From contig JAAUZC010000010.1 of the NCBI GenBank assembly GCA_014804795.1, positions 83,755 through 147,754 on the forward strand: a DNA stretch of 64,000 nt. Reading direction: 5' to 3'. The number at the start of each line of letters is the position of its first letter. Positions within the stretch are counted from its first letter, which is position 1. A program made the position numbers and the translations under genes. The DNA is from Lachnospiraceae bacterium (GTDB lineage Bacteria > Bacillota > Clostridia > Lachnospirales > Lachnospiraceae). Positions 1,493 to 58,510 of this stretch are shown piece by piece. The notes beneath the pieces are model-generated. The model was not told the DNA's origin, did no database searches, and worked only from the letters and a program-made list of their open reading frames with translations.

Positions 1493-1528
1493 TAGTGTAT
1501 CGTATATGACTCATATAAACAGAAATAA

Positions 1529-3118: not shown

Positions 3119-3181
3119 GACAAGACGAGATGAGATTCAGGTCTTTTTTTTATGCTCGAAATGACGCTTGGAGGTGGAAAA

Positions 3182-3331: not shown

Positions 3332-3419
3332 TAAGGCTTTGTAAAAGTGTAGAATGCATCCTGCCGGATGCATATGTGAACTGACCGCGGACGGATATTT
3401 GTCCGGGAAGGAGTAAAAG

Positions 3420-3620
3420 ATGGGAGATTCCTCTAAGAAAGGAAACAAAAAAGGATTCTTTGACGGTGTAAAAGCTGAATTTAAGAAAATTTCATGGCCC
3501 GATAAGACATCTATCATCAGGCAGACAGTTGCCGTTGTTGCCATTTCTCTTGTGTTGGGAGTCATTATTACCATATTAGATTTTATCGTACAGTATGGTG
3601 TTAGTTTCCTGACGATGTAA
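3420..3620 (+). CDS. secE: Preprotein translocase subunit SecE
   Basis: This 66-residue protein has an N-terminal cytoplasmic segment with the conserved FDGVKAEFKKISWPDKTSII motif and a single transmembrane helix (TVAVVAISLVLGVIITILDFIV). That is the short Firmicute SecE architecture. It clamps SecY in the membrane translocon. The ATG at 3420 follows GGGAAGGAG at good spacing. The position between rpmG and nusG is the canonical one and confirms the call. Confidence 0.96.
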   Translation: MGDSSKKGNKKGFFDGVKAEFKKISWPDKTSIIRQTVAVVAISLVLGVIITILDFIVQYGVSFLTM

Positions 3621-24508: not shown

Positions 24509-24514
24509 AGAATT

Positions 24515-24706
24515 ATGAAGATATGTACTAATTGTAACAAGAATTTGGCGAAAGATGAAATTGCGTTGAGTAAAAAAATGTTGGGAAAAAATACGAAACA
24601 ATATCTTTGTTTGGACTGTTTAAGCGATTATTTGAATGCAGATAAAGATATTCTTATAGAAAAGATAGAACAGTTTAAAGAAGAAGGATGTACATTGTTT
24701 GTTTAG
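24515..24706 (+). CDS. Small zinc-ribbon-like protein inside the BREX operon
   Basis: This 63-residue protein lies 6 bp after brxP and 9 bp before brxC. It has two CxxC pairs (ICTNCNKNLAKDE and YLCLDCLSDYL), spaced as in a zinc ribbon or knuckle, then an acidic helical tail. I do not recognise a named family. The close packing argues that it is a real member of the operon, perhaps a structural partner or a Zn/Fe-S chaperone of BrxP. That role is a guess. Confidence 0.7.
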   Translation: MKICTNCNKNLAKDEIALSKKMLGKNTKQYLCLDCLSDYLNADKDILIEKIEQFKEEGCTLFV

Positions 24707-24715
24707 GAGGCCGAA

Positions 24716-28216: not shown

Positions 28217-28232
28217 GATAGGAGGCTGTCTT

Positions 28233-32103: not shown

Positions 32104-32696
32104 TGATTGACTTTGATAAAGAACTGAATGAAATGATTGCAAACAAGAATTTGATGAATAGTTATAAGCTATATTTTCTTAAAGCATTGATAGTAAATAC
32201 TTCAAACAATGAAAAAGAGTTTGATTTTTATGAAATGGCTTGTTGGATGTGTGCTTATTCGTTTTCTGATGTATGTGCATTAGGAAAACGAATTCGACCT
32301 TTAGACAAATTATACGATGCAGCAGTTCTTATCATAGAGAAGGAAGATTTATTGGAAGCATCTAAAATTTCTGAAGTGTATGATGCAGTAGCTAATACAA
32401 AAGATAAAGAACTTAAACAGTTAATTAACTCTCTTTGTGATTATGTACCATACCGCTTGTTGGCATATTTGTGGCAGCAGGAATTGAAGGGGAAAACGGA
32501 TAGACAGAAGAACCAAATAATTGAGGAATTGTCTAGAAGTGAAGGGAAAAGCGTATATTCTATTTTCTCAATATCATTGCGTAAAAAGAGAATAGAGGTA
32601 AATCCAGAGTGGGCGACATTCATTACTAATAGTAGAAAACGATTGATTCCTTGGATTGATGAAAAGATAGATTTATTTGTTCGGAAAGGGTGCTAA
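32103..32696 (+). CDS. Uncharacterised BREX-operon protein, 197 aa
   Basis: The start codon overlaps the brxL stop (TAATG), so translation is probably coupled. The sequence is largely helical, with a notable WMCAYSFSDVCALGKRIRPL stretch, LLAYLWQQELKGK, and a C-terminal tail with NPEWATFITNSRKRLIPWID. I see no catalytic motif, signal peptide or membrane segment and do not recognise the family. Its place between brxL and the cysteine desulfurase suggests a structural or adaptor role linking the BREX core to the sulfur or effector genes. This is inference from position only. Confidence 0.7.
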   Translation: MIDFDKELNEMIANKNLMNSYKLYFLKALIVNTSNNEKEFDFYEMACWMCAYSFSDVCALGKRIRPLDKLYDAAVLIIEKEDLLEASKISEVYDAVANTKDKELKQLINSLCDYVPYRLLAYLWQQELKGKTDRQKNQIIEELSRSEGKSVYSIFSISLRKKRIEVNPEWATFITNSRKRLIPWIDEKIDLFVRKGC

Positions 32697-32698
32697 AT

Positions 32699-33817
32699 AT
32701 GATATATGCGGATAACGCTGCAACAACAAAACTCGATATAGATGCATTTGAAGCAATGAAAATGTTTTTATTAGAAGAGTACGGGAATGCTTCTCAACCA
32801 TACTCATTTGCGAGTTCAGCAAAGCGCGCATTAAAAAAGGCTAGAGAAACAATTGCAAATTGTATTGGTGCTTTTCCAGATGAGATTTATTTTACGTCGG
32901 GGGGAACAGAGAGCGATAATTGGGCGATAAAAATAGCATCAGGTGATGGCGATATAATAACATCGTCTATAGAACATCATGCTATTTTAAATGCATGTAG
33001 CGTAATGGAAAAGAAAGGGAAATTTGTTGATTATATTCCAGTTTCAAAAGAAGGTATCGTTGAACTTGAAAATTTGGAAAATAGTATAACACAAAAAACG
33101 AAATTAATTTCTATTATGTATGCAAATAATGAAATAGGAACAATCCAACCAATAAAGAAGATTGCGGAGATTGCACATAAGAATAATTGTTTCTTTCATA
33201 CAGATGCAGTGCAAGCAGTGGGACATGTACAAATAAATGTTCATGATTTAGATATAGATTTATTATCTGCATCAGCGCATAAATTTAATGGCCCCAAAGG
33301 AGTTGGATTTTTATATGTAAAGAGGGGCGCACAGATAAGTGCTTATCTTAATGGAGGTGGTCAAGAGAATGGTTTAAGAGCAGGAACCGAAAATGTTGCA
33401 GGTATTGTGGCAATGGCTGTTGCATTAGAAAAAAATTGTAATTGTATAAATGAAAATAGGAAAAAAATAAAAAAATTAGAGGAACTTTTTATCAATGAAT
33501 TAAACAATTCCGGAGTAAGATACATTAGGAATGGAAGTGAAGATCATATTCCTGGAAATATAAGTCTTTCGTTTTCAGGGATAGAAGGAGAGATGATACT
33601 TCATAGGATGGATATTAGAAAAATATGTATTGCTACAGGAGCAGCATGTGATAGTGTAAATACGAATATCTCGCATGTGTTGAAAGCTATTTGTGTTCCG
33701 GAAGAATATATAAAAGGTACGATTAGAATATCTCTTGGAAAGGACAATACGGAGCAGGAGATTGGGGTGTTAACAGATGAATTGATTAAAATTGTATCGA
33801 ATAGAGATTTTGTGTGA
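32699..33817 (+). CDS. Cysteine desulfurase (IscS/NifS/DndA type)
   Basis: The ATG at 32699 (MIYADNAATTKLD) follows GGAAAGGG; the upstream GTG of the ORF track is less likely. Its 372 residues carry the PLP fold of class V aminotransferases: YFTSGGTESDNWAIK, SIEHHAILNAC, MYANNEIGTIQPI, FHTDAVQAVGH and the PLP-lysine motif ASAHKFNGPKG. The catalytic cysteine is in ATGAACDSV. The family converts cysteine to alanine plus an enzyme persulfide. DndA enzymes supply sulfur for DNA phosphorothioation, which fits BrxP upstream; a generic Fe-S assembly role for the BrxP clusters is the alternative. Confidence 0.93.
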   Translation: MIYADNAATTKLDIDAFEAMKMFLLEEYGNASQPYSFASSAKRALKKARETIANCIGAFPDEIYFTSGGTESDNWAIKIASGDGDIITSSIEHHAILNACSVMEKKGKFVDYIPVSKEGIVELENLENSITQKTKLISIMYANNEIGTIQPIKKIAEIAHKNNCFFHTDAVQAVGHVQINVHDLDIDLLSASAHKFNGPKGVGFLYVKRGAQISAYLNGGGQENGLRAGTENVAGIVAMAVALEKNCNCINENRKKIKKLEELFINELNNSGVRYIRNGSEDHIPGNISLSFSGIEGEMILHRMDIRKICIATGAACDSVNTNISHVLKAICVPEEYIKGTIRISLGKDNTEQEIGVLTDELIKIVSNRDFV

Positions 33818-33892
33818 TAAGATATGTGACAATAGTGCTGAATGGGGCATTATATTTACGGTAAGTTTTATTGTATTATGAAAGGCGCAAAA

Positions 33893-35182
33893 ATGAATAA
33901 TATACTAAATGAATTACAGAATAAGATGGAAAATGGATATTTTGGAGATGATATTGATGATGTGGCAAAGGCTGAGGCTGCAGAGTATGGTGAATTAATT
34001 GAAAACGATGTAGATATAAATGATTTACTTCAATCTAACATTGTTTGTTCAAATAGTGGCTCAAATATCAAAACGATAATTAATAGTTTAGAAGACGGTT
34101 ATTATGTTATTCCGCCATTTCAAAGAAGATTTGTATGGAAGAAAAGTAAGATAGCATATTTGGCACTATCTATCATTCAGAGTGTCCCTATACCGCCGAT
34201 ATATGTATATACGAATGAAGAACGTAAGCAAGTTGTGTTAGATGGACAACAGCGGATGATTGCAATCTTTTTGTATTTTAATGATTTAGAATATACAAAA
34301 TCTGATAATCATATTGACTTTAAAAAAGTATCTGAATTAAACGTAGAGCTAAGAGGTTTAGAAGCCCAAGAACGAAAAATGGTGGAAGAACAAAGCCCTA
34401 AGAAAGAACTCAATAATGTACGAAGAAATATAGCAACAATGAAGAAAAAACTTCTTGTTGAATGTGGAATGAAACGGTGCTCGTATTGTGTAGATGAGGA
34501 TAAAGATATCTCGTTTAGTCTATTTGCAGAAAAAAATCGGGACTACTTATTACAAAAGAGATTAGATATAACTCTTGTGGAATCAAGAGACATGAAATGT
34601 ATTCCGCATAAAACATTTTCTAATATTTTCAAACTGTTAAATAGTGGCGGAAAGCCTTTAGGACCTCAAGAGGTAAGAAATGGAGTGTTTTGGGATACAA
34701 CATTATACGAAAATATCTATGAGATAAATGAAAGTCATAAAACCTGGAGAGAAATTTATGGTAATATTAGTGATTTCTCAAAGGATATGGAAATTCTGCT
34801 AAAAATGGTAGCGTTATGTTTTTATTCTTGTAAAAATGAAGACGGATATTTTGAAATTGATATTCAAAGGTTTTCATGGGCTAATATTATGGATAGTTAT
34901 TCGGAGATGGCATCAGAAAAGAAGGGGGAGAGGACTAAGGAAGTTTTGCTGTTAAAAAAGTATTTGGATGCTATAGAAATTGACACAAATATAAAATGTC
35001 AAAGAGCTGTGTTTGAAGCTATGTTTGTGGCATATAGTAAAGCGTGTTTGCCGGATGATGTTAAAATATCTTATAAGTGGTTATCCAGTAAAAAATTTGA
35101 AAAAGTATCTTCAAATAAGTCTAGTGTAGAAGATAGGATTAATAAGGCAGTGGTTTGGTTAAAGGAGATATGCTGTGTATAA
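33893..35182 (+). CDS. DUF262 (GmrSD/SspE N-domain-like) protein
   Basis: The start was set at ATG 33893 (MNNILNELQNKMENGYFG), 8 nt after AAAGG, giving 429 residues. The DUF262 motifs are clear: IPPFQRRFVWKKSKI, PIPPIYVY, VVLDGQQRMIAIFLYF (the DGQQR nucleotide motif) and FKLLNSGGKPLGPQEVRNGVF. DUF262 domains bind and hydrolyse NTPs in GmrSD and in SspE, which senses phosphorothioate DNA. A CSYC pair lies near residue 185. No DUF1524 HNH half is fused; a separate HNH gene lies two genes down. It overlaps the next gene by 8 nt. Confidence 0.88.
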   Translation: MNNILNELQNKMENGYFGDDIDDVAKAEAAEYGELIENDVDINDLLQSNIVCSNSGSNIKTIINSLEDGYYVIPPFQRRFVWKKSKIAYLALSIIQSVPIPPIYVYTNEERKQVVLDGQQRMIAIFLYFNDLEYTKSDNHIDFKKVSELNVELRGLEAQERKMVEEQSPKKELNNVRRNIATMKKKLLVECGMKRCSYCVDEDKDISFSLFAEKNRDYLLQKRLDITLVESRDMKCIPHKTFSNIFKLLNSGGKPLGPQEVRNGVFWDTTLYENIYEINESHKTWREIYGNISDFSKDMEILLKMVALCFYSCKNEDGYFEIDIQRFSWANIMDSYSEMASEKKGERTKEVLLLKKYLDAIEIDTNIKCQRAVFEAMFVAYSKACLPDDVKISYKWLSSKKFEKVSSNKSSVEDRINKAVVWLKEICCV

Positions 35183-36191
35183 TATAGAAAAGTTGTCTCG
35201 CGATATATATGAAGCGATATCTGGAGATATACAGAAGAAGTTTAGAGAGCATTACAATATGGTAATTGTGGGCAATAATTCTACAGGAAAAACAAGCCTT
35301 ATCGGATGTTTGTTAAATACTGTAAGAAAACAAAAGAGAAAAGATTTTTATTATATAGACCCTAAGAATCGAACTGTATTTGAACCCGAAGAAGAGGGGG
35401 GATATAGTCTTGATTTAGATTCAATATCAGCTTACGATATTATATCGAGTAGAATACGTAAGGAAGTAATGGCTAAAAAAGATGTATTTGTTGATAACTT
35501 ATCGGGTGGAGGTTTCTTTTTCACGGAGCTTGTTACAAAATTTGCTATATACAAAAATGTCCTTGAGCAGTTTATGGGATGGGAGATTAGTATAGAAAGT
35601 CCAGAAGAAACGTCGACAAGTATATTTGAAAGAGCATTAGAAAGGAATCAGAGAAAAAAAGTCATTATTAATAATAGTTATGAAATTGCATCCATATCGA
35701 GTAGTGAGCAAGCGAAAATGCGAATAGTCATGGAAGTAATGATTGCAAGAAATAAGAATTGCAAAGTAGTAATTATTGATGAGTTCGATTCGCATTTCGA
35801 TTCCGAGGGAATGGTTAGTTTTTTAAATCAACTTGTCGAAAAGTTTAATGAGATGCGATTTATAGTTATCATTCATAATTTTGAGGTTCTTGTAAATATT
35901 AATGATTTTGATGCTTTGATTTTTAATATATTAGATACGTCTGAGACGCCATATAATTATGTTGATACAAATAATATTAGTCAAATAGGTGATGCATATA
36001 AAGCATTTAATAGATTTGCAGATAAAAAGGGTAAACAAGAGCGGCTGTTGGGAGAATGTATAACTTATGTAGTAAAAGGCGAAAAAATTCCAACAGAGAT
36101 ACATAATAAAATAGCAAAGATAGACAGGAAATTGTTGACTAATAAAGAAAAAATTTTGTTTGATTATATAAAGGAGAGGAATGGAGAATAG
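35175..36191 (+). CDS. ABC/SMC-type ATPase, PtuA-like
   Basis: GTG start at 35175, 7 nt after AAAGGAG, overlapping the DUF262 gene. The 338-residue protein has Walker A NMVIVGNNSTGKTSLIG, a shortened signature-like SISSSEQAKMRI and Walker B CKVVIIDEFDSHFDSEG with the downstream VIIHNFEVLVN (H-loop-like). This compact ATPase next to an HNH gene resembles the PtuA/PtuB pair of Septu defence, though sequence relation is not proven. It probably gates the neighbouring HNH protein with ATP. The overlap with both neighbours supports a three-gene complex. Confidence 0.8.
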   Translation: MYNIEKLSRDIYEAISGDIQKKFREHYNMVIVGNNSTGKTSLIGCLLNTVRKQKRKDFYYIDPKNRTVFEPEEEGGYSLDLDSISAYDIISSRIRKEVMAKKDVFVDNLSGGGFFFTELVTKFAIYKNVLEQFMGWEISIESPEETSTSIFERALERNQRKKVIINNSYEIASISSSEQAKMRIVMEVMIARNKNCKVVIIDEFDSHFDSEGMVSFLNQLVEKFNEMRFIVIIHNFEVLVNINDFDALIFNILDTSETPYNYVDTNNISQIGDAYKAFNRFADKKGKQERLLGECITYVVKGEKIPTEIHNKIAKIDRKLLTNKEKILFDYIKERNGE

Positions 36192-37153: not shown

Positions 37154-40123
37154 ATGAAAAGTATAGCGGATCTAGAAAAAAGAATACACTGTCTGGAAAA
37201 GGAAAATCAATACTTGAAATATCTGTTGGCAGATGCAGGGATTTCTTATTCTGAAAAAGAGATAGATGACGGAGATGATGATGAATATGATCCAGATCAA
37301 GGATCAAGAATTATATCAAAAGATATTACTGAAACAGATGCAAAAGTGTTCTTCAGTATGTTTTGGGGACGTACAGATGTATACAGTAAGCGCACCATAA
37401 AGAAATCTACCGGGGAAGTAAATTATTATACACAGTGTCATAATTTTTGGAAAAACGGCTGCCCGAGAATTACTGGAAGTAAGATAAAATGTCAGGATTG
37501 CCAGAAACAGGCATATAAAGAGTTAAAAAAGGAACAAATTATTGAGCATTTAAGGGGAAATTCAAAAGATGCTACTGATGTTATAGGTATTTACCCGCTT
37601 TTAGCCGATGATACCTGCCGATTCATCGTCTTTGATTTTGATAATCATGAAAAAGATGCAGAAAAAAATGATTTTGCAAATGTTGATGATATGTGGAGAG
37701 AGGAAGTAGACTCTCTGAGAAAAATATGTGATATGAACGGAATTGATGCATTGGTAGAGCGTTCACGTTCGGGGAAAGGCGCACATCTTTGGATATTTTT
37801 TCAAAAACCAATAGAAGCCAGTCTTGCAAGAAAATTTGGAAATGCGCTGTTAAATAAAGGAGCGGAGTCTGTAAATTTAAGGTCATTTCGTTTTTATGAC
37901 CGTATGTTGCCGATGCAGGATCATCTTCCGGAAGGCGGAGTGGGTAATCTGATTGCACTGCCATTACAGGGGCAGGCATTAAAAGAGGGAAACAGTGCAT
38001 TTATAGATGAACACTGGAATGCATATCCCGACCAGTGGAGAGTGCTGCTAAATAAGAAAAAACTTTCAAAGGAGTTTGTCGAGGATAAGATAAGTGAATG
38101 GACAGAGGGAGATTCCTATACTGCCTCTGATGGCAAAGATATTTTTGAGAGTGATCATGAAAAGCCATGGGACAAAACAAAGCATTTTCAGAAGGGGGAT
38201 GTTGAAGGAATATTACATATTACGCTGTCGAACGGTGTATATGTGAATACGGTGAATTTACAGCCAAGAATACAAAATCAGTTCAGAAGAATGGCTGCAT
38301 TTTCCAATCCTGTTTTTTATAAAAATCAGGCTATGGGATTGTCTAATTTTGAAAATTACAGATATGTTTATCTTGGAAGCGACGAAGGTGAGTACATAAA
38401 AGTTCCAAGGGGTATTTTGGAAAATATAACCGAGGAGTGTGAAAAAGCCGGTATTGAATATGAAATAGAAGATAAGCGGAGCAAAGGGCTTCCGATTCAT
38501 GTGGAATTTATTGGGGAACTGAGAGAATCACAGATACCTGCTGTAGAAAAGCTTCTTCAAAATGACAATGGAATTCTTAATGCAGCCACAGCATTTGGAA
38601 AGACGGTTGTGTGTTGCAATGTTATTGCAAAAAAACAGGTAAGTACGCTTATTCTTCTTCAGTCGTCAGCCCTGATGGAACAATGGCGGGAAGCACTGGA
38701 AAAGTTTTTATATATTGATGAGGAACTTCCTGAGTATGAAACGCCGACAGGCCGCAAGAAAAGACGAAAAAGTGTCATTGGGAAATTGCAAGGAGCTCAT
38801 GATTCCACCACAGGTATTATTGATATTGCGATGGTTGGTTCAATTTGTAAGAATGGTGAATACCACAAGCGGTTAAAAGAGTATGGACTCATATTGGTGG
38901 ACGAGTGTCACCATGCCGCTTCAGATACAATCGTGGATATATTACAGGAAGTAAATGCAAAATATGTATATGGAGTAACAGCTACCCCATTCAGGGGCGA
39001 TAGTTTGGAGAAAATAAATTATATGCTCCTTGGTCCAATTCGTTATAAGTACACTTCAAAGGATAGGGCGAAAGAGCAGGGGATAGAGCATCTTGTTTAT
39101 CCACGATTTACAAGAGCGGTTGCTCCAAGATTTTCACAGGATAAAATGCATCCAAATGAGGCATATGAAATTATCCGCAATAATGAAGACAGAGACGAAT
39201 TAATCATAAGGGATGTGAAACAATGTGTAGATGAGGGAAGAACGCCGGTGGTTCTTTCCAAATACGTGGAACATTCACAGCGGTTATATCAGCGCTTGAT
39301 AAATTATGCAGACAAAGTCTTTTTACTGTCCGGCAGGAATTCAATGAAAGATCATAAAGAAATTTTAAAACAGATGAATCAGGTTACGCCCAAAGAAAGT
39401 ATGATCCTTGTTGCGACTGGTAAACTGATAGGAGAAGGATTTGATTATCCGAGGCTGGATACACTGATTATGGCAACTCCGGTGGCATGGAAGGGAGTAG
39501 TAGAGCAGTATGCCGGACGTTTAAACAGGGATTATGCTGGAAAGAAAAGCGTGATTATTTATGATTATGTGGATAGTCATATATCCATGTTTGACCGGAT
39601 GTATCATAAAAGGCTTAAAGCATATAAACAGATTGGATATGATATTTTTTCCGGGACTGGTACACATATGCAAACGACCAATGCAATTTTTGACATAGAT
39701 AATTACGCAGATATCTACCAGAATGATTTGCTTGCCGCAGAGAAAGAAATCATAATTTCAAGTCCGGCTATTAGTGGCAAAAAAGTATATGATATGATTC
39801 ATTTACTTAGAGAAAAGCAGGAGGCAGGAATTAAAATAGTCATTGTCACATGGAAACCGGACTGCTATGGCTATGGGGACAGTGCGTACTGGCAGGAACT
39901 TCAGGAGCAGATGAGAAAGGCAGGATTCGAAATGAATCTTGTGGAGGATTACTGCGAACATTATTGTATTATAGACCACGAAGTGGTCTGGTACGGAAGT
40001 ATGAATTTTCTGGGAAAAGAAGATGCAGAAGATAACCTGATGCGTATTGGAGATGCAAAGATTGCGAACGAATTACTTGAAATGACATTTGGAAATGAAA
40101 AATATCAGGGCGAGACGATGTAA
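37154..40123 (+). CDS. Primase-helicase-PLD protein (TOTE-type AEP plus SF2 helicase)
   Basis: This 989-residue multidomain protein starts after AAGGAGTACCTG. A short coiled coil (1-30) precedes an archaeo-eukaryotic primase-like domain with CRFIVFDFDNHEKD and the VERSRSGKGAHLWIFF motif (about 155-230). An SF2 helicase follows (about 460-830), with ATAFGKTVVCC (motif I), LVDECHHAA (II), VTATPFRGD (III) and QYAGRLNRD (VI). A C-terminal PLD-like domain ends in HYCIIDHEVVWYGSMN, where the usual HxK lysine is cysteine. Such proteins occur in conflict systems. Base composition is less AT-rich than the BREX genes, hinting at separate origin. Confidence 0.85.
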   Translation: MKSIADLEKRIHCLEKENQYLKYLLADAGISYSEKEIDDGDDDEYDPDQGSRIISKDITETDAKVFFSMFWGRTDVYSKRTIKKSTGEVNYYTQCHNFWKNGCPRITGSKIKCQDCQKQAYKELKKEQIIEHLRGNSKDATDVIGIYPLLADDTCRFIVFDFDNHEKDAEKNDFANVDDMWREEVDSLRKICDMNGIDALVERSRSGKGAHLWIFFQKPIEASLARKFGNALLNKGAESVNLRSFRFYDRMLPMQDHLPEGGVGNLIALPLQGQALKEGNSAFIDEHWNAYPDQWRVLLNKKKLSKEFVEDKISEWTEGDSYTASDGKDIFESDHEKPWDKTKHFQKGDVEGILHITLSNGVYVNTVNLQPRIQNQFRRMAAFSNPVFYKNQAMGLSNFENYRYVYLGSDEGEYIKVPRGILENITEECEKAGIEYEIEDKRSKGLPIHVEFIGELRESQIPAVEKLLQNDNGILNAATAFGKTVVCCNVIAKKQVSTLILLQSSALMEQWREALEKFLYIDEELPEYETPTGRKKRRKSVIGKLQGAHDSTTGIIDIAMVGSICKNGEYHKRLKEYGLILVDECHHAASDTIVDILQEVNAKYVYGVTATPFRGDSLEKINYMLLGPIRYKYTSKDRAKEQGIEHLVYPRFTRAVAPRFSQDKMHPNEAYEIIRNNEDRDELIIRDVKQCVDEGRTPVVLSKYVEHSQRLYQRLINYADKVFLLSGRNSMKDHKEILKQMNQVTPKESMILVATGKLIGEGFDYPRLDTLIMATPVAWKGVVEQYAGRLNRDYAGKKSVIIYDYVDSHISMFDRMYHKRLKAYKQIGYDIFSGTGTHMQTTNAIFDIDNYADIYQNDLLAAEKEIIISSPAISGKKVYDMIHLLREKQEAGIKIVIVTWKPDCYGYGDSAYWQELQEQMRKAGFEMNLVEDYCEHYCIIDHEVVWYGSMNFLGKEDAEDNLMRIGDAKIANELLEMTFGNEKYQGETM

Positions 40124-43297: not shown

Positions 43298-43304
43298 TAA
43301 AAGA

Positions 43305-43440
43305 AGCAAATCTTAGTCCTTTTTGCAAACGCAAAAAGATGATTGGCAAATCCTTTGTCAAGCTGTTATAAGGATTACCCCTTGAGGTTTCAGCAGTAGG
43401 TTGCCCTATATGCCAATCAGAGTATTTGCCAGATTCTATG
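43305..43440 (+). ncRNA. Candidate structured leader/ncRNA upstream of the HNH gene
   Basis: A hairpin CTTTTTGC-AAAC-GCAAAAAG (43319-43338) is followed by helix P1, GATTGGCA (43341-43348) with TGCCAATC (43411-43418). P1 encloses P2, AATCCTT (43349-43355) with AAGGATT (43370-43376). In the D2 copy one stem base changes G-C to G-U, and pairing is kept. I know no named RNA family that fits. Confidence 0.45.
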
Positions 43441-43495: not shown

Positions 43496-44440
43496 ATGAA
43501 AAAACTTATGGATTTAAACAAAGAAACAGCCAATAGGTTGTGGGTACAACAGTTTGGCAAAAAGCAGAAGGCGATGGACTTTTCCGGACGTGAGATTGCG
43601 AAAGCCGCCTACAATGATAGGAACAGCAATTATGGTTGGAATGTTGATCACATTTTACCGTTGTCAAGAGGAGGCAAAACAGCAGATCATAACTTGATTT
43701 GTTGTCATATTTTGACTAACGATGAGAAAGCGGACAAATTTCCATGTTTCAAAGCTAATGCAAAAGAATTTGAGATTCAAAAGCGGCAGAATCACTATGA
43801 GATTGTTGCAAGAACTGCTGACAAAAAGGAGGAAGAGGATAAAGTCGTAAATTTTTTGGATGTAGCACAGGGACTTGAATGTTGGAAACAATGCAAGTCT
43901 TATAGTGGGCAGGTTTTCGTTGGATATATCAAAATCAGGGTTGAGGTTTCCAATGAATTCAATCAACTTCTTGTAAGATATGAGAAATTTTTGTTTGAGC
44001 TATTTGGGACAGAAAGCATTTTTGTTGAAGACACGGGATATTCCAATAGTTATATGCATAGTCTACAGCATAATCGGGCCTATATTTTTACTGTTATAGC
44101 AGGTAATGTTTCAACGAAAGATAATACAGAAAATCTTCTTAGTGATTGTGTTGCATTAAATACTTATAGTGATTATTTTATAAGCAACACCGAGTTTGAA
44201 GGCATTCAGATTGTCTGTGGAATGAAGTGTTATGATAACTGTTTTGAAATGTCTTTGAACTGTAAAAAAGATATTTTGGAAAAACAGATACAGTTTAGTG
44301 CTCCATTGGCGATTGATGAACTTGTTAAAATTAATACGAGTGCTGAAAAGGAGTTGAAGGATATTTTTCCCCAAAGTGGATTTTATCCTTATAATTTTAA
44401 ATTTACAAAATTGAAAAAAAATCTTGACAAATTAATTTGA
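43496..44440 (+). CDS. HNH endonuclease-domain protein, 314 aa
   Basis: The ATG at 43496 lies 8 nt after AAGGGAAG. Near the N-terminus (about residues 35-80) is an HNH motif: GWNVDHILPLSRGGKTADHN followed by LICCHILTNDEKADKFPCF. The remaining 220 residues show no motif I know and could be a sensing domain. The gene carries the structured leader of repeat D1 and is followed by a good terminator. It is probably a metal-dependent DNA nuclease, either defensive or part of a mobile element. The alternative reading frame MTHEKTYGFKQRN stops after 15 codons. Confidence 0.8.
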   Translation: MKKLMDLNKETANRLWVQQFGKKQKAMDFSGREIAKAAYNDRNSNYGWNVDHILPLSRGGKTADHNLICCHILTNDEKADKFPCFKANAKEFEIQKRQNHYEIVARTADKKEEEDKVVNFLDVAQGLECWKQCKSYSGQVFVGYIKIRVEVSNEFNQLLVRYEKFLFELFGTESIFVEDTGYSNSYMHSLQHNRAYIFTVIAGNVSTKDNTENLLSDCVALNTYSDYFISNTEFEGIQIVCGMKCYDNCFEMSLNCKKDILEKQIQFSAPLAIDELVKINTSAEKELKDIFPQSGFYPYNFKFTKLKKNLDKLI

Positions 44441-46604: not shown

Positions 46605-47712
46605 ATGAAAGCCTTTCAGGACAGCTCTTGCTTCCTTTCTGATCCAGAAGCAGTATGGTTATATCGATATGGAAGGGGCAGAGATTGCAGCAATCACGCA
46701 TGGCCATTCGCTTGGATACATGCCGGCAGCAGTTTTAACCCATATTATCAACCGCATTGTATTCTCCGAAGAGAGAATTTCTTTAAAGAGCATAATCTTA
46801 GAAGCAAAGGATACGGTTGCAAAAGTTTCCCGTGGCGATAAGCACCTGAAGGAACTTACGGATATCATCGGTCTGGGAATTGCACATTACTGTTCGCTAA
46901 GACACCAGAACGATTTTTCGGATGGTGTGATTGCTGTGGTAAATCATAAAGGTGACAGTGATTCCACGGGAACAGTTACCGGAAATATTCTTGGTGCATT
47001 GCTTGAATTTGATGCGATCGAGGAAAGGTGGAAGACGAATCTGGAATTGATTGATGTGATGATAGAGATGGCCGATGATTTTTGCCACGGGTGTCAGATA
47101 CATGAATTTGGTCACTATGAAGATCCGGATTGGAGGCGGAAATATATTTATATGAGATGGAAAGATGAGAAACTCGATATAGCAGAGAAGACACAGTTTA
47201 TTGCAGTACGTGGGGATATTACAAAAGACCACGGCGTTCAGGCTATCGTTAATGCTGCCAATACCAGTCTGCTTGGTGGGGGCGGCGTGGACGGTGCAAT
47301 TCACCGTGCTGCCGGTTCGGAGCTTCTGGCGGAGTGCCGTCTCTTAAATGGATGCAAGACGGGACAGGCGAAGATCACAAAGGCGTACAAACTTCCATGT
47401 GAATATGTAATTCATACTCCGGGACCACACTGGAACGGTGGAAAGTCCAAAGAGGCTGAATTGCTCGCGTCCTGCTACAGATCCTGCCTGGAACTTGCTG
47501 TAGAGAATGGAATCAAAAAAATAGCATTTCCTTCTATCGCCACAGGCATATATAGCTATCCGCTGGATCAGGCGGCGGAGATCGCAGTCAAAACTGTTAA
47601 GGAGTTCGTAGTCAATCACCCCGGAGAACTGAATGTGATTAAATGGGTACTGTTTGATGATACGACGCTGCGGGCATATGAAGCTCAGATAGAGCGCTGG
47701 ACGGTTTCGTAG
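46605..47712 (+). pseudogene. 5'-truncated ADP-ribosylglycohydrolase-macrodomain fusion
   Basis: The frame has an upstream stop and no ribosome site, but reads [20 protein letters not shown] from about 46617. The first ORF-track methionine is at 46669. Residues 1-150 are the C-terminal half of a DraG-like hydrolase ([15 protein letters not shown], metal-site [20 protein letters not shown]). From about residue 170 follows a complete macrodomain ([50 protein letters not shown]). The intact fusion would remove ADP-ribose from targets. About the first 100 residues are missing, apparently lost at junction C. The macrodomain could still fold if expressed. Confidence 0.75.
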
Positions 47713-48526: not shown

Positions 48527-48799
48527 CTAATGATATATTTCATTGCTATAATCCCACAAATATATTATACTTAAAAAAGCAAATCTTAGTCCTTTTTGCA
48601 AATGTAAAAAGATGATTGGCAAATCCTTAGTCAAGCTGTTATAAGGATTACCCTTTGAGGTTTCAGCAGTAGGTTGCCCTATATGCCAATCAGAGTATTT
48701 GCCGGATTCTATGAGGAGGTCAAATACAATTTATACTTCTCGTTTTATGAGTAAGGGAAGTATGACGCATGAAAAATATTATGGATTTAAACAAAGAAA
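48527..48799 (+). repeat. Direct repeat D2 of the HNH leader
   Basis: This is the second copy of 43253-43526, with the same promoter (TTGCTA/TATACT) and the same hairpins, including the pairing-neutral C-to-T change. Here the HNH coding sequence is absent; after the first codons the sequence joins an unrelated small ORF. Confidence 0.9.
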
Positions 48800-50718: not shown

Positions 50719-52038
50719 GTGAATTTACTGATGATACATGTATGGAATGAAAAAGAAATTTCTTATCGGGGAAGATTTTCCAATCTCCTTTCTTATCCGT
50801 CCCTGACCCTGGCAACCCTCTATTCCCTGATTCCGAAGGGAGTATTTTCCCGAATTGATATAGTGGATGAAAATTCGCAAAAGGTAAATTATGATAAAGA
50901 GCAGTACGATATGGTGATGCTTTCCTTTGAAACCTCGTCTGCTTATACAGCGTATAAGCATTGTGCAGAGTTTAAGAAAAGGGGAGCTTATATCGTTTGC
51001 GGCGGCTATCATGCTACTGCACTTCCGGAGGAGGTCGGCGGCCACTGTGATACTGTGATCGTGGGGCCTGCGGAAATTTCCATTCCGCAGTTTATAGAAG
51101 ATTTTATACATGGGACGCCTCAGAAAGTTTATAAGAATTTTGACGTATGTGCGGCACAATTTGTGATACCGGCGAGAGATAAGGTTACCGGACACAAAAA
51201 GCTCAGAATTCCTTCCGTAATTGCTGACCGGGGCTGCCGGAACAGTTGCAAATACTGTTCCATGCGGACAATGTGGAAAAGCGATCCCCGTCCGATAGAA
51301 AGTGTCATAGAAGAAATCCGATCATTAAAGACAAAAATGGTTATTTTTTATGATCCCAATTTTTTTGGTAAGCGGGAATATGCCATGGAGCTGATGCAGG
51401 CTCTAAAACCGTTAAAGATTCTTTGGGCGTCTAATGCAACGGCTGATTTCGGTTATGACCATGAACTGATGCAGACGGCTTATGAGAGCGGCTGCCGGGG
51501 TGTTTTGATCGGTCTTGAATCGCTCAATTCCCAGTCTTTGACCAACGCCGCAAAACGCTTTCATGAACCGGATAAATACAAAGAGATCATTGAAAACATA
51601 CATAGCCATGGCATAGCAGTGAACGGCTGTTTTGTTCTGGGGTTTGACAATGATACGGAGGAAGAACTGCTGGCGCTGCCGGAACGGGTAGACAGGCTTG
51701 GGCTGGATCTGTGCCGTTTTGCCGTACTCACACCATATCCGGGGACAAGGCAGTATGAGGAGTATGAACGCGGAGGTAGAATTCTGACAAAGGATTGGAG
51801 CCGGTACACTCAGCATAATGCGGTATTTTGTCCGGCCAATATGACTCCAAAGCGGTTGGATGAAATATACAGACAGGTCTGGAAGGAAGCCTATACATGG
51901 AAAAAGGTGTTAAAGCGTATGGCAGCCTCGCCATGGAGGAAACCCTCCTATCTTTTTATTCTGCTGGGCGCCAATATAGGATTCAAATTTCTAGGTATTG
52001 ACAAATACCATGGATTTGACAAAGGGATGAGGAAGTGA
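50719..52038 (+). CDS. B12-binding radical SAM protein 1
   Basis: GTG at 50719 is chosen (MNLLMIHVWNEKEISYRG) because it aligns with the start of its four paralogues; GTG 50710 crowds the ribosome site. It has an N-terminal Rossmann cobalamin-binding-like domain (residues 1-150, VCGGYHATALPEE). A radical SAM core follows with CRNSCKYCSM (CX3CX2C), GLESLNSQSL and NGCFVLGFDNDTEEE. C-terminal motifs are TPYPGTRQYEEYE and a hydrophobic tail. The family performs radical methylation or ring chemistry. It belongs to subgroup {1,4} by sequence. The substrate is unknown. Confidence 0.9.
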   Translation: MNLLMIHVWNEKEISYRGRFSNLLSYPSLTLATLYSLIPKGVFSRIDIVDENSQKVNYDKEQYDMVMLSFETSSAYTAYKHCAEFKKRGAYIVCGGYHATALPEEVGGHCDTVIVGPAEISIPQFIEDFIHGTPQKVYKNFDVCAAQFVIPARDKVTGHKKLRIPSVIADRGCRNSCKYCSMRTMWKSDPRPIESVIEEIRSLKTKMVIFYDPNFFGKREYAMELMQALKPLKILWASNATADFGYDHELMQTAYESGCRGVLIGLESLNSQSLTNAAKRFHEPDKYKEIIENIHSHGIAVNGCFVLGFDNDTEEELLALPERVDRLGLDLCRFAVLTPYPGTRQYEEYERGGRILTKDWSRYTQHNAVFCPANMTPKRLDEIYRQVWKEAYTWKKVLKRMAASPWRKPSYLFILLGANIGFKFLGIDKYHGFDKGMRK

Positions 52039-53351
52039 AAATCACATTTATTCGTTTAAATATGTTTGAGCATATCAGTTCGGATGCCATGAAACCTGTG
52101 TTGTTTGCTGTCATTAAGGGCCTTACTCCGGCGGAACATGAAATATATTTTTTGGATGAGCGGGTGGAAAGGCTGCCGGAACAGATTGACTCGGATATCA
52201 TTGCCTTTTCGGTGGAAACCTACACTGCCAAGCGGGCTTATATACTTGCAAAAAAATATAAAACGAAAAATAATGTAATTGTGATGGGAGGTTTTCATGC
52301 CGGCGTGATGTCGGATGAAATGCTGCGTTATGCGGATACAGTGCTTGTGGGTGATGCGGAGGATACCTGGGGAGATTTCTTAGCGGATTGTGTTAAGGGG
52401 GCACCGGCGCATAAGTATATCTCCGAAGAAAAGCATCCCCTTACAGCCGTCCCTGATGTCCCGGGCATCTACAGGCATAACTACTACGGAATCGGTGTTT
52501 ACCAGCTCTCACGGGGATGTAAATTTAACTGTGAATTCTGCTCCATTAAGACGATGTACAGATGTGTACGGCGCAAACCCAGGGATGTGATCTATGAGGA
52601 GCTGAAAGCGGCAAGAGAAAAAATTATTTTTTTTGCGGATGACAATCTGTTTTATGATAAAAATTCTGCCCTGGAACTGTTTCAAAAAATTGCGCCATTG
52701 AAAAAGAAATGGGCTTGTCAGATCAGTCTGGACGCGGCCGGAGACGACGAGATTTTGAAAGCGATGAAGAAGGCGGGGTGCTTTCTCGTCCTGATCGGTT
52801 TTGAAAGCCTGAATGCCGGGAGCCTTGCAGAGATGAATAAGAGGGCTAATATTTGCGCGGATTATACGGAAATCATCAGGCGGATATACCGGCATCGGTT
52901 ACTGGTTTACGGCACGTTTGTGCTGGGATGTGACGGCGACAATGTGGATGTTTTTGATGCGACCTTTCAATTTGCGGTAAAAAATAAAATAGCGGTCACG
53001 AATTTTAATCCCCTGATCCCGATGCCGGGTACAGGGGTGTATAAGCGGATGGAAAAGGAGGGCAGGCTGCTTTATAAGAAATGGTGGCTTTCGGACAGGT
53101 ACCGTTACGGGGAGACGGCATTTATACCGAAAAATATGTCACCGGAGCAGCTCCGTGACGGATGTCTGAAAATGCGTACGGATTTTTATTCGGCGAGATG
53201 CATTTTAAAGCGTTTATTTTCCAATCCCATCAATTTTATACCACTTAATTTCTTTGTGTTTATTATGGCAAACATCATCTCACACAGGGAGATATTAAAG
53301 AAACAGGGACAGCTTTTGGGAGGAATATTAAATGAAGCTGACGTTGATTAA
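52035..53351 (+). CDS. B12-binding radical SAM protein 2
   Basis: GTG start overlapping the previous stop (GTGA), so translation is coupled. The B12-binding-like domain has VMGGFHAGVMSDEM, and the radical SAM cluster reads CKFNCEFCSI. Further motifs are FFADDNLFYDKNSALELFQK, LIGFESLNAGSLAEMNKRA, YGTFVLGCDGDN and IPMPGTGVYKRMEKEGRLLY. At 438 residues it is the same size as its neighbours. The ETYTAKRAY and LFQKIAPLKKKWACQ features place it with proteins 3 and 5. The C-terminus has a hydrophobic helix (NFIPLNFFVFIMANIIS) that may touch the membrane. Confidence 0.9.
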   Translation: MKITFIRLNMFEHISSDAMKPVLFAVIKGLTPAEHEIYFLDERVERLPEQIDSDIIAFSVETYTAKRAYILAKKYKTKNNVIVMGGFHAGVMSDEMLRYADTVLVGDAEDTWGDFLADCVKGAPAHKYISEEKHPLTAVPDVPGIYRHNYYGIGVYQLSRGCKFNCEFCSIKTMYRCVRRKPRDVIYEELKAAREKIIFFADDNLFYDKNSALELFQKIAPLKKKWACQISLDAAGDDEILKAMKKAGCFLVLIGFESLNAGSLAEMNKRANICADYTEIIRRIYRHRLLVYGTFVLGCDGDNVDVFDATFQFAVKNKIAVTNFNPLIPMPGTGVYKRMEKEGRLLYKKWWLSDRYRYGETAFIPKNMSPEQLRDGCLKMRTDFYSARCILKRLFSNPINFIPLNFFVFIMANIISHREILKKQGQLLGGILNEADVD

Positions 53352-54696
53352 ACCCAACATAGGGCGGCGGGAACACAGCCTTTATGTGGATGAGGGAAGA
53401 ATGGAGCCGTTACAGCTGGGTATCCTTGCGGCGCTTACCCCATCGGATATAGAGGTGGTTATGTATGACGACCGTATGGAGTCGATTCCCTATGAGGAAC
53501 CCACGGATCTGGTTGCCATTACCGTAGAAACCTTTACCGCAAGGCGCGCCTATGAGATCAGTGCGGAATTTCGCAAAAGAGGAGTAAAGACTGTCATGGG
53601 TGGGATGCATGCCATGCTGATTCCTGAAGAGGTTTCCGAGTATTGTGACTGCGTCATTGTGGGGGATGCCGAGCCTGTGTGGAAAACAATGTTGGAGGAT
53701 TTTCAGAAAGACAGGCTGCAAAGCCGCTATGATGTGATTCAGCCCGAATGTCCGCAGGCGGACGTGATACCCAGGCGCGATATTTTTGAGGGGAAGGGCT
53801 ATCTTCCGATAACGCTTTTGCAGTATTCCAGGGGATGCAGTCACAGATGCAGTTTCTGTGCATCTTCCGTATATTTTAAAGCCCATCATTACTGCCGTCC
53901 GGTGGAGGATGTGATTCAGGAAATAAAAATGCAAAAGAGAAAGCTGCTGTTTTTTGTGGATGACAATATTGTCTGTAACCATGAAAAGGCAAAGGAGCTT
54001 TTTCGTGCGCTGATCCCGCTGAAGATCCGTTGGGTGAGTCAGGGAAGTATGGACATGCTGCGTGACAGAGAGCTTATGGAGCTGATGGTAAAAAGCGGCT
54101 GTCTGGGGCTTGTTATCGGATTTGAATCTATTTCCCCGGACTGCATAGCGCAGATGAATAAGTATACGAACAGGCATGGTTCCAATGATATGTACCGGGA
54201 AGAGATTCGGCAGCTTAGAGAGTGGGGGCTGCAGACATGGGCGGCATTTACGGTGGGGCATGACGGTGATACCGTGGAATCGATACGGGCGACCTGTGAT
54301 TTTGCGATCAAAAATAAGTTTACATTTGCCGCGTTTAATATTCTGATGCCTTATCCGGGTACTCCGCTTTATGAAAAAATGGAACGGGAGGGACGGCTGC
54401 TGTATGACGGCAAATGGTGGCTTCATGAAGACTACCGCTTTAATTATGCCAGCATTGTGCCTAAAAATATGACGGCTGATGAATTAACAGAGGTTTCCTT
54501 TGAATGCAGAAGACGTTTTAACAGTGTGTCCTCTATCGTGAAAAGAGCATTGGAGCCGAGAACGAATATGCGGACACCTTACCGCTTTCTCACATACCTT
54601 ATCTATAACCCGTTGTTCCGCAAAGAGGTACATAAAAAGCAGGGGATGCGCTTCGGTTTAAAAACACAAGAGAATCAGGAGAAGATAATATGCTGA
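53332..54696 (+). CDS. B12-binding radical SAM protein 3
   Basis: ATG at 53332 overlaps protein 2 by 20 nt, with GGGAGG upstream. Its 454 residues carry an N-terminal domain with TVMGGMHAMLIPEEVSEYCD, cluster CSHRCSFCAS, FFVDDNIVCNHEKAKELF, VIGFESISPDCIAQMNKYTN and MPYPGTPLYEKMEREGRLLY. The start MEPLQLGILAALTPSDIEVV closely parallels protein 5 (MEPLTIAVLKALTPPDIETE), so the two probably arose by duplication. Specificity is unknown; family members include HpnJ-like and BchE-like enzymes. Confidence 0.9.
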   Translation: MKLTLIKPNIGRREHSLYVDEGRMEPLQLGILAALTPSDIEVVMYDDRMESIPYEEPTDLVAITVETFTARRAYEISAEFRKRGVKTVMGGMHAMLIPEEVSEYCDCVIVGDAEPVWKTMLEDFQKDRLQSRYDVIQPECPQADVIPRRDIFEGKGYLPITLLQYSRGCSHRCSFCASSVYFKAHHYCRPVEDVIQEIKMQKRKLLFFVDDNIVCNHEKAKELFRALIPLKIRWVSQGSMDMLRDRELMELMVKSGCLGLVIGFESISPDCIAQMNKYTNRHGSNDMYREEIRQLREWGLQTWAAFTVGHDGDTVESIRATCDFAIKNKFTFAAFNILMPYPGTPLYEKMEREGRLLYDGKWWLHEDYRFNYASIVPKNMTADELTEVSFECRRRFNSVSSIVKRALEPRTNMRTPYRFLTYLIYNPLFRKEVHKKQGMRFGLKTQENQEKIIC

Positions 54697-56036
54697 AAAT
54701 TGCTTTGCTTGCTCCGGCGGGAGCGATGCATCGTTATTCGGGGAGTTTTGGGAAATCCCTTCACTATGCTCCGCTCACGCTCACTACTTTGGCGGCGCTG
54801 GTTCCGGAGGATGTGGAAGCTGATATTTCTATTTATGACGAGACCGCGGGGAAAATTCCTCTTAATCTGGATGCGGATCTGATAGGAATCACCTGCATCA
54901 CCGGGACGGCCCCCCGCTGTTATGCCTATGCGGATTATTTCCGCAAAAAGGGAAAAACGGTTTTTATGGGAGGCGTGCATCCCTCCATGCTTCCGGATGA
55001 GGCTGCTCAGCATGCGGATGTTGTTTTTACGGGTTTTTCCGAGCAGACATTTCCGCAGTTTATTTACGATTATATCAGAGGCAATCATAAAGCGCGTTAT
55101 TGTCAGAACGAAGACTTTACCATTGTCGGTAAACCCATACCGCGCAGGGAGCTGTTGAATAAAAAGCGCTACATTACAACCAAGACGGTAGAGGCAATTA
55201 GAGGATGCTGTCATACATGCAGCTTTTGCGCCTATCCCGCGGCATTTGGCAAGCCTGTTTATAAGCGGCCGGTAAAAGAGGTGGTAGCGGAGATTGAGGC
55301 GCTTCATACAAAACATGTTTTGTTTCCGGATGTGAATCTGATCACGGATTTACAATATGCCATGGAACTTTTTAACGCATTGATCCCATTAAAAATTATG
55401 TGGCTGGGGCTTGTGACGTCGGCCATTGGCATGAGTGACGAGTTAATTACATTATTCCGGAAGAGCGGGTGCAGGGGACTTTTAATCGGGTTTGAATCCA
55501 TAACGCAGGAATCCCAGCAGTATATACATAAAGGGGTAAATCAGGTAGACGGCTATGTTACATTGATGAAGAAACTGCATGACAACGGCATTCTGGTACA
55601 GGGCTGCTTTGCCTTTGGCGGCGATGAGGAGGATGAGAGTGTGTTTGACCGCACGGTGGAAATGGCCATTAAGGCGAAAATCGATCTGCCGAGATATTCT
55701 ATCCTCACACCCTTTCCAAAAACTCCGTATTATGCCCAGCTGGAAAAAGAGGGGCGCATCACGGAGCGGAATTGGGCGATGTATGATGTCCAGCACTGTG
55801 TGTTTCAACCGAAAAAGATGACCAAAGAGCAGTTGGAAGAAGGAACGGACAGGGCATGGCGGATGACGTATACCAATGGGAATATAGCCAAAAGACTTGC
55901 ACCGTTTCGGCACAGTCCATGGCTTTCCCTGTCTTTGAACTTAGGCTATAAAGGATATGCCGATAAATGGCATAAATTTACCCGTGAAGTGATGTGTGAC
56001 AACTCGGATATTCCGGTAATTGATAGTGTCAAGTAA
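54690..56036 (+). CDS. B12-binding radical SAM protein 4
   Basis: ATG at 54690 overlaps protein 3 by 7 nt after CAGGAGAAG. The 448-residue chain has TVFMGGVHPSMLPDEAAQHA in the cobalamin-binding-like domain, cluster CCHTCSFCAY, FPDVNLITDLQYAMELFNAL (like protein 1, not 2/3/5), LLIGFESITQESQQYIHKG and TPFPKTPYYAQLEKEGRI. Its N-terminus (YAPLTLTTLAALVPEDVEAD) also pairs with protein 1. It is the last of the four directly overlapping genes; a 94-bp gap follows. Confidence 0.9.
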   Translation: MLKIALLAPAGAMHRYSGSFGKSLHYAPLTLTTLAALVPEDVEADISIYDETAGKIPLNLDADLIGITCITGTAPRCYAYADYFRKKGKTVFMGGVHPSMLPDEAAQHADVVFTGFSEQTFPQFIYDYIRGNHKARYCQNEDFTIVGKPIPRRELLNKKRYITTKTVEAIRGCCHTCSFCAYPAAFGKPVYKRPVKEVVAEIEALHTKHVLFPDVNLITDLQYAMELFNALIPLKIMWLGLVTSAIGMSDELITLFRKSGCRGLLIGFESITQESQQYIHKGVNQVDGYVTLMKKLHDNGILVQGCFAFGGDEEDESVFDRTVEMAIKAKIDLPRYSILTPFPKTPYYAQLEKEGRITERNWAMYDVQHCVFQPKKMTKEQLEEGTDRAWRMTYTNGNIAKRLAPFRHSPWLSLSLNLGYKGYADKWHKFTREVMCDNSDIPVIDSVK

Positions 56037-56163
56037 TATATGAAAAATGAAAAACAGCAACGAATCGGACAAGCCCCGGGAGGATTTACAGACACTTTAG
56101 TGGCTGGAAATTCTCCCAGTTCAAAGGGGCTTGGGAGAGGAGTTGCGGAACTGGAATGAAAGC

Positions 56164-57495
56164 ATGAAGATTACTTTTATTCTCCCGGCGATCGGGAAAA
56201 AGCAGGGACAAAAATATATCGGCACATGGAAGATGGAACCGCTTACCATTGCAGTACTGAAGGCACTGACGCCTCCAGATATTGAAACAGAGCTTTTTGA
56301 TGACCGTATAGAGCTGATTGATTACAATACCGCAACAGATCTTGTGTGTATTACGGTGGAGACATATACGGCGCGCCGAAGTTATCAGATTGCCGCAAAA
56401 TTCCGTGAGCGGGGCATTCCCGTGGTAATGGGCGGATATCATGTCACCCTTTGTCCGGAGGAGGCCGCCCTGTATTGCGACAGTGTCATCGCAGGAAATG
56501 CAGAAACAGTCTGGAGCCGTATGCTTTCGGACTTTCGGAATGATCATCTTGAAAAGATTTATCGCGGCGGGATCGGAGAATATGATATTCGTCCGGATAA
56601 AACCATTTTCAAAGGAAAAAAGTATCTTCCGATCTCTCTTGTGGAAACCGGACGGGGATGCTGTCACAGCTGTGATTTTTGTGCCATATCAAAATATTAT
56701 TGCGGAAGGTATTATAGCCGTAAGCACAGTCTGATACTGGATGATTTAGAATGTTCCGGGCATAAATACACTTTTCTGGTGGACGATAATCTTATGGCGG
56801 ACAAAAACAATGCAATGACTCTTTTTGATGAGATCGCACCACTGAAGAAGAAATGGGCAGGACAGGGAACTCTTTCCATGGCGAAAGATGAAAAGTTGCT
56901 TAAGGCGATGAAAAAAAGCGGGTGCGAAATCATTTTGATCGGTTTTGAGAGTCTGAGTAAAGAGAATCTGAACCAGATGAACAAGTCCTTTAACTATGCG
57001 TTGGGCGAGCGGGATGAGCTTGTGAAACGCATTCATGATGCAGGGATCGGCATCTACGCCACTTTTGTATTCGGCTATGACAACGATGATGAGAGGACCA
57101 TAGACCAAGCCATGGAGTTTGCAAAGAAGCACAATTTTTATACCGCAGCGTTCAACCATCTGCTGCCTTTTCCGAATACGCCGCTTTATGACCGCCTAAA
57201 GGCGGACGGACGGCTGATTTATGACAAATGGTGGATTGAAAAGGGATACAATTACGGAGAACTTGCTTTTTACCCGAAGAATATTTCTCCGGAGAAACTC
57301 AGCATGCTTTGCAGGGATGCGCGAAAGGAATTTTCCGCGCCGAAAACGGTGATAAACAGGGGGATGGCATCTTTAGGGCGGACCAGTCCGCTGCTTTGGT
57401 GGCTGTTCTGGGCCATGAATCTGCGTCTGGGGGAAGAAGTGGATCAAAAAATGAATGTCCCGATAGGAGAGAATCTTGATGAACTTCCAAAATGA
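56164..57495 (+). CDS. B12-binding radical SAM protein 5
   Basis: ATG 56164 (MKITFILPAIGKKQGQKYIG) matches the paralogue starts. The ORF-track TTG at 56131 and an in-frame TTG at 56143 are alternatives; the ribosome site AGGAG is far from 56164, so the start is unsure. The radical SAM cluster is CCHSCDFCAI, with VDDNLMADKNNAMTLFDEIA, LIGFESLSKENLNQMNKSF and FPFPNTPLYDRLKADGRLIY-type motifs. About 443 residues. It overlaps the acetyltransferase-like gene by 17 nt. It groups with proteins 2 and 3. Confidence 0.9.
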   Translation: MKITFILPAIGKKQGQKYIGTWKMEPLTIAVLKALTPPDIETELFDDRIELIDYNTATDLVCITVETYTARRSYQIAAKFRERGIPVVMGGYHVTLCPEEAALYCDSVIAGNAETVWSRMLSDFRNDHLEKIYRGGIGEYDIRPDKTIFKGKKYLPISLVETGRGCCHSCDFCAISKYYCGRYYSRKHSLILDDLECSGHKYTFLVDDNLMADKNNAMTLFDEIAPLKKKWAGQGTLSMAKDEKLLKAMKKSGCEIILIGFESLSKENLNQMNKSFNYALGERDELVKRIHDAGIGIYATFVFGYDNDDERTIDQAMEFAKKHNFYTAAFNHLLPFPNTPLYDRLKADGRLIYDKWWIEKGYNYGELAFYPKNISPEKLSMLCRDARKEFSAPKTVINRGMASLGRTSPLLWWLFWAMNLRLGEEVDQKMNVPIGENLDELPK

Positions 57496-58510
57496 CCGAT
57501 ACACATTGAAACTTGCCGACAGTTCTGATAATGCCGGCATTCGTGAAATTTTTGAAAGCAGTGCCTTCAGCGGCGGAATCAGCGTACAGTATCTGAGGAA
57601 TCCCGAACCCTATGAATCTTTTCGTGCGGATGGAGATGATGCCAAGATTCTTGTTATCGTGGACAATGAAACGAAAAGAGCGGCGGCGGTGGGCGGAGCA
57701 GTGGTACGATGTGAATATATAAACGGAAAAGAGGAAAAATGTGCCTATCTTACCGGACTCAAGATCCATCCGGATTACCGGAAAACGCTTGCTTTTATGA
57801 CGAAGGCGTATGATTTTCTGCATAAGGAAATTTCTGACTGCAGATGCTGTTATACGACTATTCTTGATGATAACCTGCCGGCAATTTCCATGTTTGAAAA
57901 GAAACGCAAGAACATGCCGGAATACAGGTATCTGGGACATTATACCACCTACTGCTTTCACGGGGGCAAAAAGTTGCTCGACATAGAAAAAGATCATTTG
58001 GAAGGCTTTGATCAATTGATGAAAACACATTTTGCGGCTCAGAACCTTGTACCGGTTGATCATCATTACGAGGGTTTTGGGGAACAAACCTTTTACTGCG
58101 CAAGGGAAAGGGGAGAGATCATCGCCTGCTGTTTTGTGGGGAACCAACAGGGATATAAACAGTATAAAATGAATTCTTACGGCGGAATTTACAAGGCGTT
58201 GTCAAAGCTTCCCACAGAGCTTTTCGGCTATCCGCAATTTCCGAAGGCGGATACCATTGTAAACCATGGGGTGATTTCTTATCTCTATATCAGGGATTGT
58301 GATGAAAAACTCTGTAATCGGTTTCTGCGCACCGTTGCGGCACAGGCGGGGTTTTCGCTGTTGATATGGGGAGGGTTTGAAAATAACCCGCTTTGCGCCG
58401 CACTTGACAAAATGCGGACGGTTCATTATGGGAGCAGACTTTACTCTGTTCTTTGGGATGAGAGGCCTGCGCTTTCAGGAGTGATCGGTATGGAGGTAGC
58501 CCTGCTTTAG
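57479..58510 (+). CDS. GNAT-like acyltransferase at the end of the radical SAM operon
   Basis: ATG 57479 lies 7 nt after AGGAG and gives 343 residues. The first half has a GNAT-like pattern (YTLKLADSSDNAGIREIFES, AYLTGLKIHPDYRKTLAFMT, a DDNLPAISMFEKKRKNMPEY motif B-like stretch). The second half appears to be a further, degenerate GNAT-type fold. GNAT enzymes transfer acyl groups from acyl-CoA to amines. Overlap with protein 5 suggests a tailoring step on the same unknown product. No precursor peptide, terpene or polyketide gene is near. Confidence 0.75.
   Translation: MNFQNDRYTLKLADSSDNAGIREIFESSAFSGGISVQYLRNPEPYESFRADGDDAKILVIVDNETKRAAAVGGAVVRCEYINGKEEKCAYLTGLKIHPDYRKTLAFMTKAYDFLHKEISDCRCCYTTILDDNLPAISMFEKKRKNMPEYRYLGHYTTYCFHGGKKLLDIEKDHLEGFDQLMKTHFAAQNLVPVDHHYEGFGEQTFYCARERGEIIACCFVGNQQGYKQYKMNSYGGIYKALSKLPTELFGYPQFPKADTIVNHGVISYLYIRDCDEKLCNRFLRTVAAQAGFSLLIWGGFENNPLCAALDKMRTVHYGSRLYSVLWDERPALSGVIGMEVALL

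Follow-up and report, generated by a model that had tools for sequence, protein, structure and literature searches.

A compact gene set of five B12-binding-type radical SAM paralogues and a predicted N-myristoyltransferase-type acyltransferase in a Lachnospiraceae genome and in other anaerobic bacteria

The gene cluster and its five radical SAM paralogues

The window, that is the whole stretch of 64,000 nucleotides analysed from the genome of a Lachnospiraceae bacterium, contains six open reading frames on the plus strand between positions 50710 and 58510, which are arranged head to tail and either overlap or almost abut (Table 1). Five consecutive homologous enzymes with CX3CX2C clusters and a GNAT gene had already been described here in the initial annotation, and the reading frames, the Pfam matches and the motif all agree with that description. 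The start of P5 was assigned according to its homologues, which begin at the position matching an internal ATG. The gene set is not due to chance, as dozens of genomes share both the genes and their order.

Table 1. Features of the cluster. Positions refer to the window; L010 is the locus of the nearest relative.
Feature	Position	Strand	Remarks
P1, B12-binding-type radical SAM protein, 442 aa	50710..52038	+	PF04055 61 bits, PF02310 28 bits; Cys176/180/183; 82% ortholog in L010
P2, radical SAM paralogue, 438 aa	52035..53351	+	4 bp overlap with P1; 78% ortholog in L010; own clade, SH-aLRT 99
P3, radical SAM paralogue, 454 aa	53332..54696	+	20 bp overlap with P2; 88% ortholog in L010; own clade, SH-aLRT 99
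P3/P4 junction	54690..54696	+	P3 stop overlaps P4 start (ATGCTGA); site of C and GH3 in relatives
P4, radical SAM paralogue, 448 aa	54690..56036	+	90% ortholog in L010; own clade, SH-aLRT 99
P5, radical SAM paralogue	56131..57495	+	likely start at internal ATG, about 56164, giving 443 aa; 87% ortholog in L010; own clade, SH-aLRT 99
Terminal NMT-type double-GNAT acyltransferase, 343 aa	57476..58510 (ORF); likely ATG 57479	+	Acetyltransf_1; AlphaFold2, Foldseek; invariant final Leu

All five paralogues match Radical_SAM (PF04055) with 47-64 bits (Pfam cut-off 29.5). The match to the B12-binding domain (PF02310) is partial in each of them (27-33 bits), and P4 alone exceeds the cut-off of 32.1. 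All five proteins carry the CX3CX2C motif, as do 192 of 193 orthologues, the single exception (L012) being a record with masked residues. P2 to P5 share 28-35% identity with P1, and in the window genome the five are the only enzymes of the B12-binding-type radical SAM kind found at E <= 1e-20.

A fast maximum-likelihood analysis of 99 rows with SH-aLRT supports recovers the two subgroups that had been proposed by eye, {2,3,5} with a support of 100 and {1,4} with 96; two distant homologues fall inside each. P1, P2, P3, P4 and P5 each correspond to one orthologous clade (SH-aLRT 99-100), and these clades are conserved across several phyla.

The paralogues share an N-terminal B12-binding-type domain and a radical SAM core with HpnJ, BchE, PhpK and AprD4. 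In contrast to these proteins five paralogues are encoded in one operon, and none of the corresponding NCBIfam equivalog models comes near its cut-off (best score 99 bits versus 600). An assignment of P1 to P5 to the characterised equivalogs was rejected, since they score 35-99 bits against cut-offs of 480-600. Neither orthology to a characterised enzyme nor a scattering of single paralogues among the relatives, the two outcomes that the initial annotation had set against its own proposal, was found: all scores are far below cut-off and the orthologous groups are kept together. Among solved structures AprD4 is the best match. As AprD4 is curated as a diol dehydratase and the B12-binding domain is weak, methylation by P1 to P5 is not established. 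Lower-face residues are described as variable in the context of B12 binding (PMC13331322).

The N-myristoyltransferase type of acyltransferase has long been reported as eukaryotic. The terminal protein of the cluster matches Acetyltransf_1, and no Pfam NMT family was matched by it. It is modelled by AlphaFold2 as a double GNAT (pLDDT 92.8), for which the top Foldseek matches are N-myristoyltransferases (TMq about 0.61), closely followed by the tandem GNAT MAB_4324. The protein extends 18 residues past its last strand and ends with a leucine. Of 50 full-length members 48 share this final residue, and the other two are a truncated and a partly masked sequence; in the alignment, all 35 of 35 rows have Leu in the last column. 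The modelled double-GNAT fold, the C-terminal extension and the invariant C-terminal residue resemble N-myristoyltransferase, whereas the identity is only about 10% and the protein is encoded in a bacterial biosynthetic operon. In N-myristoyltransferase the C-terminal carboxylate serves as catalytic base (PMC4964394, PMC7048800), and bacterial structures of the NMT type have been reported from a structure search (PMC12219266).

Orthologous loci and the partner genes C and GH3

When 84,980 species genomes were scanned with orthologues of P5, at least 79 loci were recovered. Among the matches listed, L010 to L067 share 49-87% identity with P5, and the hosts are mostly MAGs of Oscillospiraceae and Lachnospiraceae, but Alkaliphilus, Mucispirillum, Gastranaerophilales and actinobacterial records are also found. 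Since most of the locus records are MAGs, individual taxon assignments may be binning errors.

The gene layouts were mapped by tblastn (L118 and L037 lie on the same contig). Among the matches listed, the usual order is P1-P2-P3-C-GH3-P4-P5-GNAT (21 loci), in which C and GH3 denote two genes that are not present in the window copy. Eleven further loci show this order without P1 and seven contain C-GH3-P4-P5-GNAT; smaller variants and variants cut by contig ends occur as well. Loci with two, four or five radical SAM genes exist, and P4, P5 and GNAT are found in nearly every layout listed that is neither cut by a contig end nor split. One genome (G402) carries the set on two contigs, with P5-GNAT on one and P2-P3-C-GH3-P4 on the other. 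Of the 38 loci that contain P3 as well as P4 (among the matches listed, window excluded), 35 have C and GH3 between these two genes. The three exceptions, L063, L064 and L115, show a second layout, P4-[P1]-P2-P3-P5-GNAT, without C and GH3. The order P1-P2-P3-P4-P5-GNAT is seen in the window alone among the loci listed. That no substrate or partner gene is adjacent, as claimed initially, is hence correct for the window copy but not for the cluster as such. Apart from these loci, a P4-like radical SAM gene lies near a GH3 gene in an Omnitrophota MAG (L081, positions 123-3599).

In the relatives, C encodes a protein of about 230-240 aa and GH3 a ligase of about 500 aa. C is modelled as a single GNAT fold (pLDDT 93.9) with GNATs as best matches (TMq about 0.43). 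It occurs in 3 of 391 genomes of the class, all three of which bear the operon, while some GH3 gene is present in 26 of the 391; the other GH3 loci inspected contain neither C nor these radical SAM genes. The GH3 proteins of the relatives comprise the N-terminal, middle and C-terminal domains PF03321, PF23571 and PF23572, which identifies them as members of the GH3 acyl-acid amido synthetases; in L007 the C-terminal domain scores slightly below the cut-off. The closest curated model is OlsH, which they match with 47-54 bits, far below its cut-off of 620.

Across the loci, no transporter, protease, regulator or other flanking gene is found repeatedly in the vicinity of the operon. A riboswitch was found neither at the window operon nor at the seven loci scanned, whereas cobalamin riboswitches are present elsewhere in the window genome. 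The three loci without GH3 (L063, L064, L115) have a Trp_Tyr_perm gene directly upstream. A gene of the same family adjoins a distant relative of the NMT-type GNAT (hhalign probability 95%) in L117 (6005-8311), where radical SAM genes are missing, and none was found in the window genome. The permease gene beside three operon loci and one distant GNAT relative weakly suggests an amino acid as acceptor.

History of the window copy

Neither GH3 (PF03321) nor C is encoded anywhere in the window genome (95% complete), while both were detected in the positive controls G171, G198 and G402; for C, two of the three control genomes are themselves part of the alignment. A distal partner gene, for which a search had been suggested initially, was thus not found elsewhere in this genome as far as GH3 and C are concerned. 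The nearest relative, L010, which in the tree is the sister sequence for P2 to P5 and the nearest row for P1, has kept both genes. Because C and GH3 are missing in the window genome and retained by its sister, the window copy would most simply be an internally deleted operon, from whose middle the two genes were lost.

At the junction in the window the P3 stop and the P4 start overlap cleanly. A fusion of the P3 tail to the tail of GH3 was considered and dropped, as the same overlap of the P3 stop with the next start is found in L011, L013 to L015 and L066. Both C and P4 usually start with Met-Leu-Lys (ATGCTnAAA), so that C and GH3 might have been excised by way of a short direct repeat. The remaining genes of the window are constrained (pN 0.07-0.14 versus near-saturated synonymous change), and the loss is not dated by dN/dS.

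A search of 40 relatives, including eight of the same genus, did not reveal the terminal GNAT, and this absence fits a horizontal gain. The same absence, together with the genome-wide lack of C and GH3 despite detection in the positive controls and their retention in L010, can also be taken to indicate that the window genome carries a decaying remnant, which no longer makes the product. We regard this as unlikely, as none of the six remaining frames is disrupted and all of them are constrained, and as a layout without GH3 exists elsewhere (L063, L064, L115).

Putative product and alternative pathways

The gene set is compact and well conserved in anaerobic, mostly gut, bacteria and appears to be devoted to the production of a small molecule. 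A multistep radical pathway, as proposed in the initial annotation, is in line with the conserved paralogues that are kept together; that proposal overlooked GH3, C, the NMT-type GNAT and the permease layout. The existence of the partner genes suggests amide or N-acyl chemistry with an amino-acid-like substrate.

With moderate confidence we propose that the cluster is a dedicated operon for an amide-type small molecule, present in the window in an internally deleted form, which combines N-acylation, radical remodelling and an optional GH3/C step. The following order of steps is suggested by gene conservation and by the chemistry of the families. The NMT-type GNAT would use acyl-CoA to acylate the amine of an amino acid or a derivative, its own C-terminal carboxylate acting as base. 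The acylated compound would then undergo its first radical C-H or C-C transformations, carried out by P4 and P5 by means of 5'-deoxyadenosyl and probably assisted by cobalamin. Since loci with different numbers of radical SAM genes exist, P3, P2 and P1 may add further transformations in later steps. C and GH3 might attach another acyl group, join an activated carboxylate to an amine, or do both. Without this C/GH3 step, the window lineage would either make a simpler product or carry a pathway that is a relic not yet decayed.

More tentatively, and somewhat short of an even chance, the operon may stand for a new natural-product class of anaerobes, an N-acylated amino-acid-derived molecule made in at least four phyla by an NMT-type double GNAT and as many as five B12-radical SAM reactions in succession, with GH3 and C as optional additions. 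No publication on this gene set was found in the open-access literature, to which the search was limited. If the proposal is true, a hidden metabolite is produced by dozens of anaerobes, mostly from the gut, which would employ a bacterial relative of N-myristoyltransferase and as many as five radical steps; new enzyme chemistry might be found in any of these steps. As the operon is short and self-contained and exists in natural variants (two, four or five radical SAM genes, GH3 present or missing), the steps should be separable by comparison of these variants.

Alternatively, the operon could serve the tailoring of a membrane lipid, in which the radical SAM enzymes modify a fatty acyl chain, an OlsH-like GH3 links an amino acid and the GNATs finish the lipid. 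The closest curated model for the GH3 proteins is indeed that of a lyso-ornithine lipid synthetase, the terminal protein resembles a long-chain acyltransferase, HpnJ and a ladderane-lipid model are among the NCBIfam matches of the radical SAM proteins, and a distant P4-like gene in a Jettenia record (L071) lies near ketosynthases. However, the operon encodes no acyl carrier, O-acyltransferase or ketosynthase, every equivalog score is far under its cut-off, and GH3 is dispensable in two layouts. The planctomycete OlsH/OlsI pathway for N-acyl-ornithine lipids (PMC12493201) likewise employs a GH3-family ligase that forms an amide and is encoded in a bacterial operon, but at the present operon neither OlsI nor OlsG is seen; five radical SAM enzymes and two GNAT-fold proteins are found instead, and GH3 is missing in the window copy. 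For other bacterial GH3 proteins the synthesis of other N-acyl amino acids was suggested in the same study. Altogether, the tailoring of a lipid seems rather improbable.

Several B12-radical SAM enzymes are known to modify ribosomal peptides, and RiPP members are among the NCBIfam matches of the radical SAM proteins, yet a RiPP pathway with a distal precursor peptide is very improbable, because no small ORF recurs in the 29 upstream and 45 downstream regions searched for a precursor, the abutting genes leave little room within the operon, neither a transporter nor a protease recurs nearby, and partners such as GH3 and a double GNAT are not characteristic of RiPP clusters.

Apart from the putative amide-type operon, the window contains several other features. 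Positions 22106-36191 comprise a defence island, in which PADLOC identifies BrxP, BrxC-like, PglZ-like, BrxL and a DndA/SspA cysteine desulfurase; GmrSD-like and ATPase genes come next. The island resembles a variant of BREX that includes genes of the phosphorothioation type. A TOTE-type archaeo-eukaryotic primase/helicase/PLD-domain protein is encoded at 37154-40123, and at 46669-47712 a macro domain is fused to an ADP-ribosylglycohydrolase-like domain. The Rfam Staphylococcus-1 RNA is present in two near-identical copies (43303-43432 and 48576-48705), the first of which is immediately followed by an HNH_4 reading frame (43496-44440); the two are possibly parts of an HNH/RNA mobile element.
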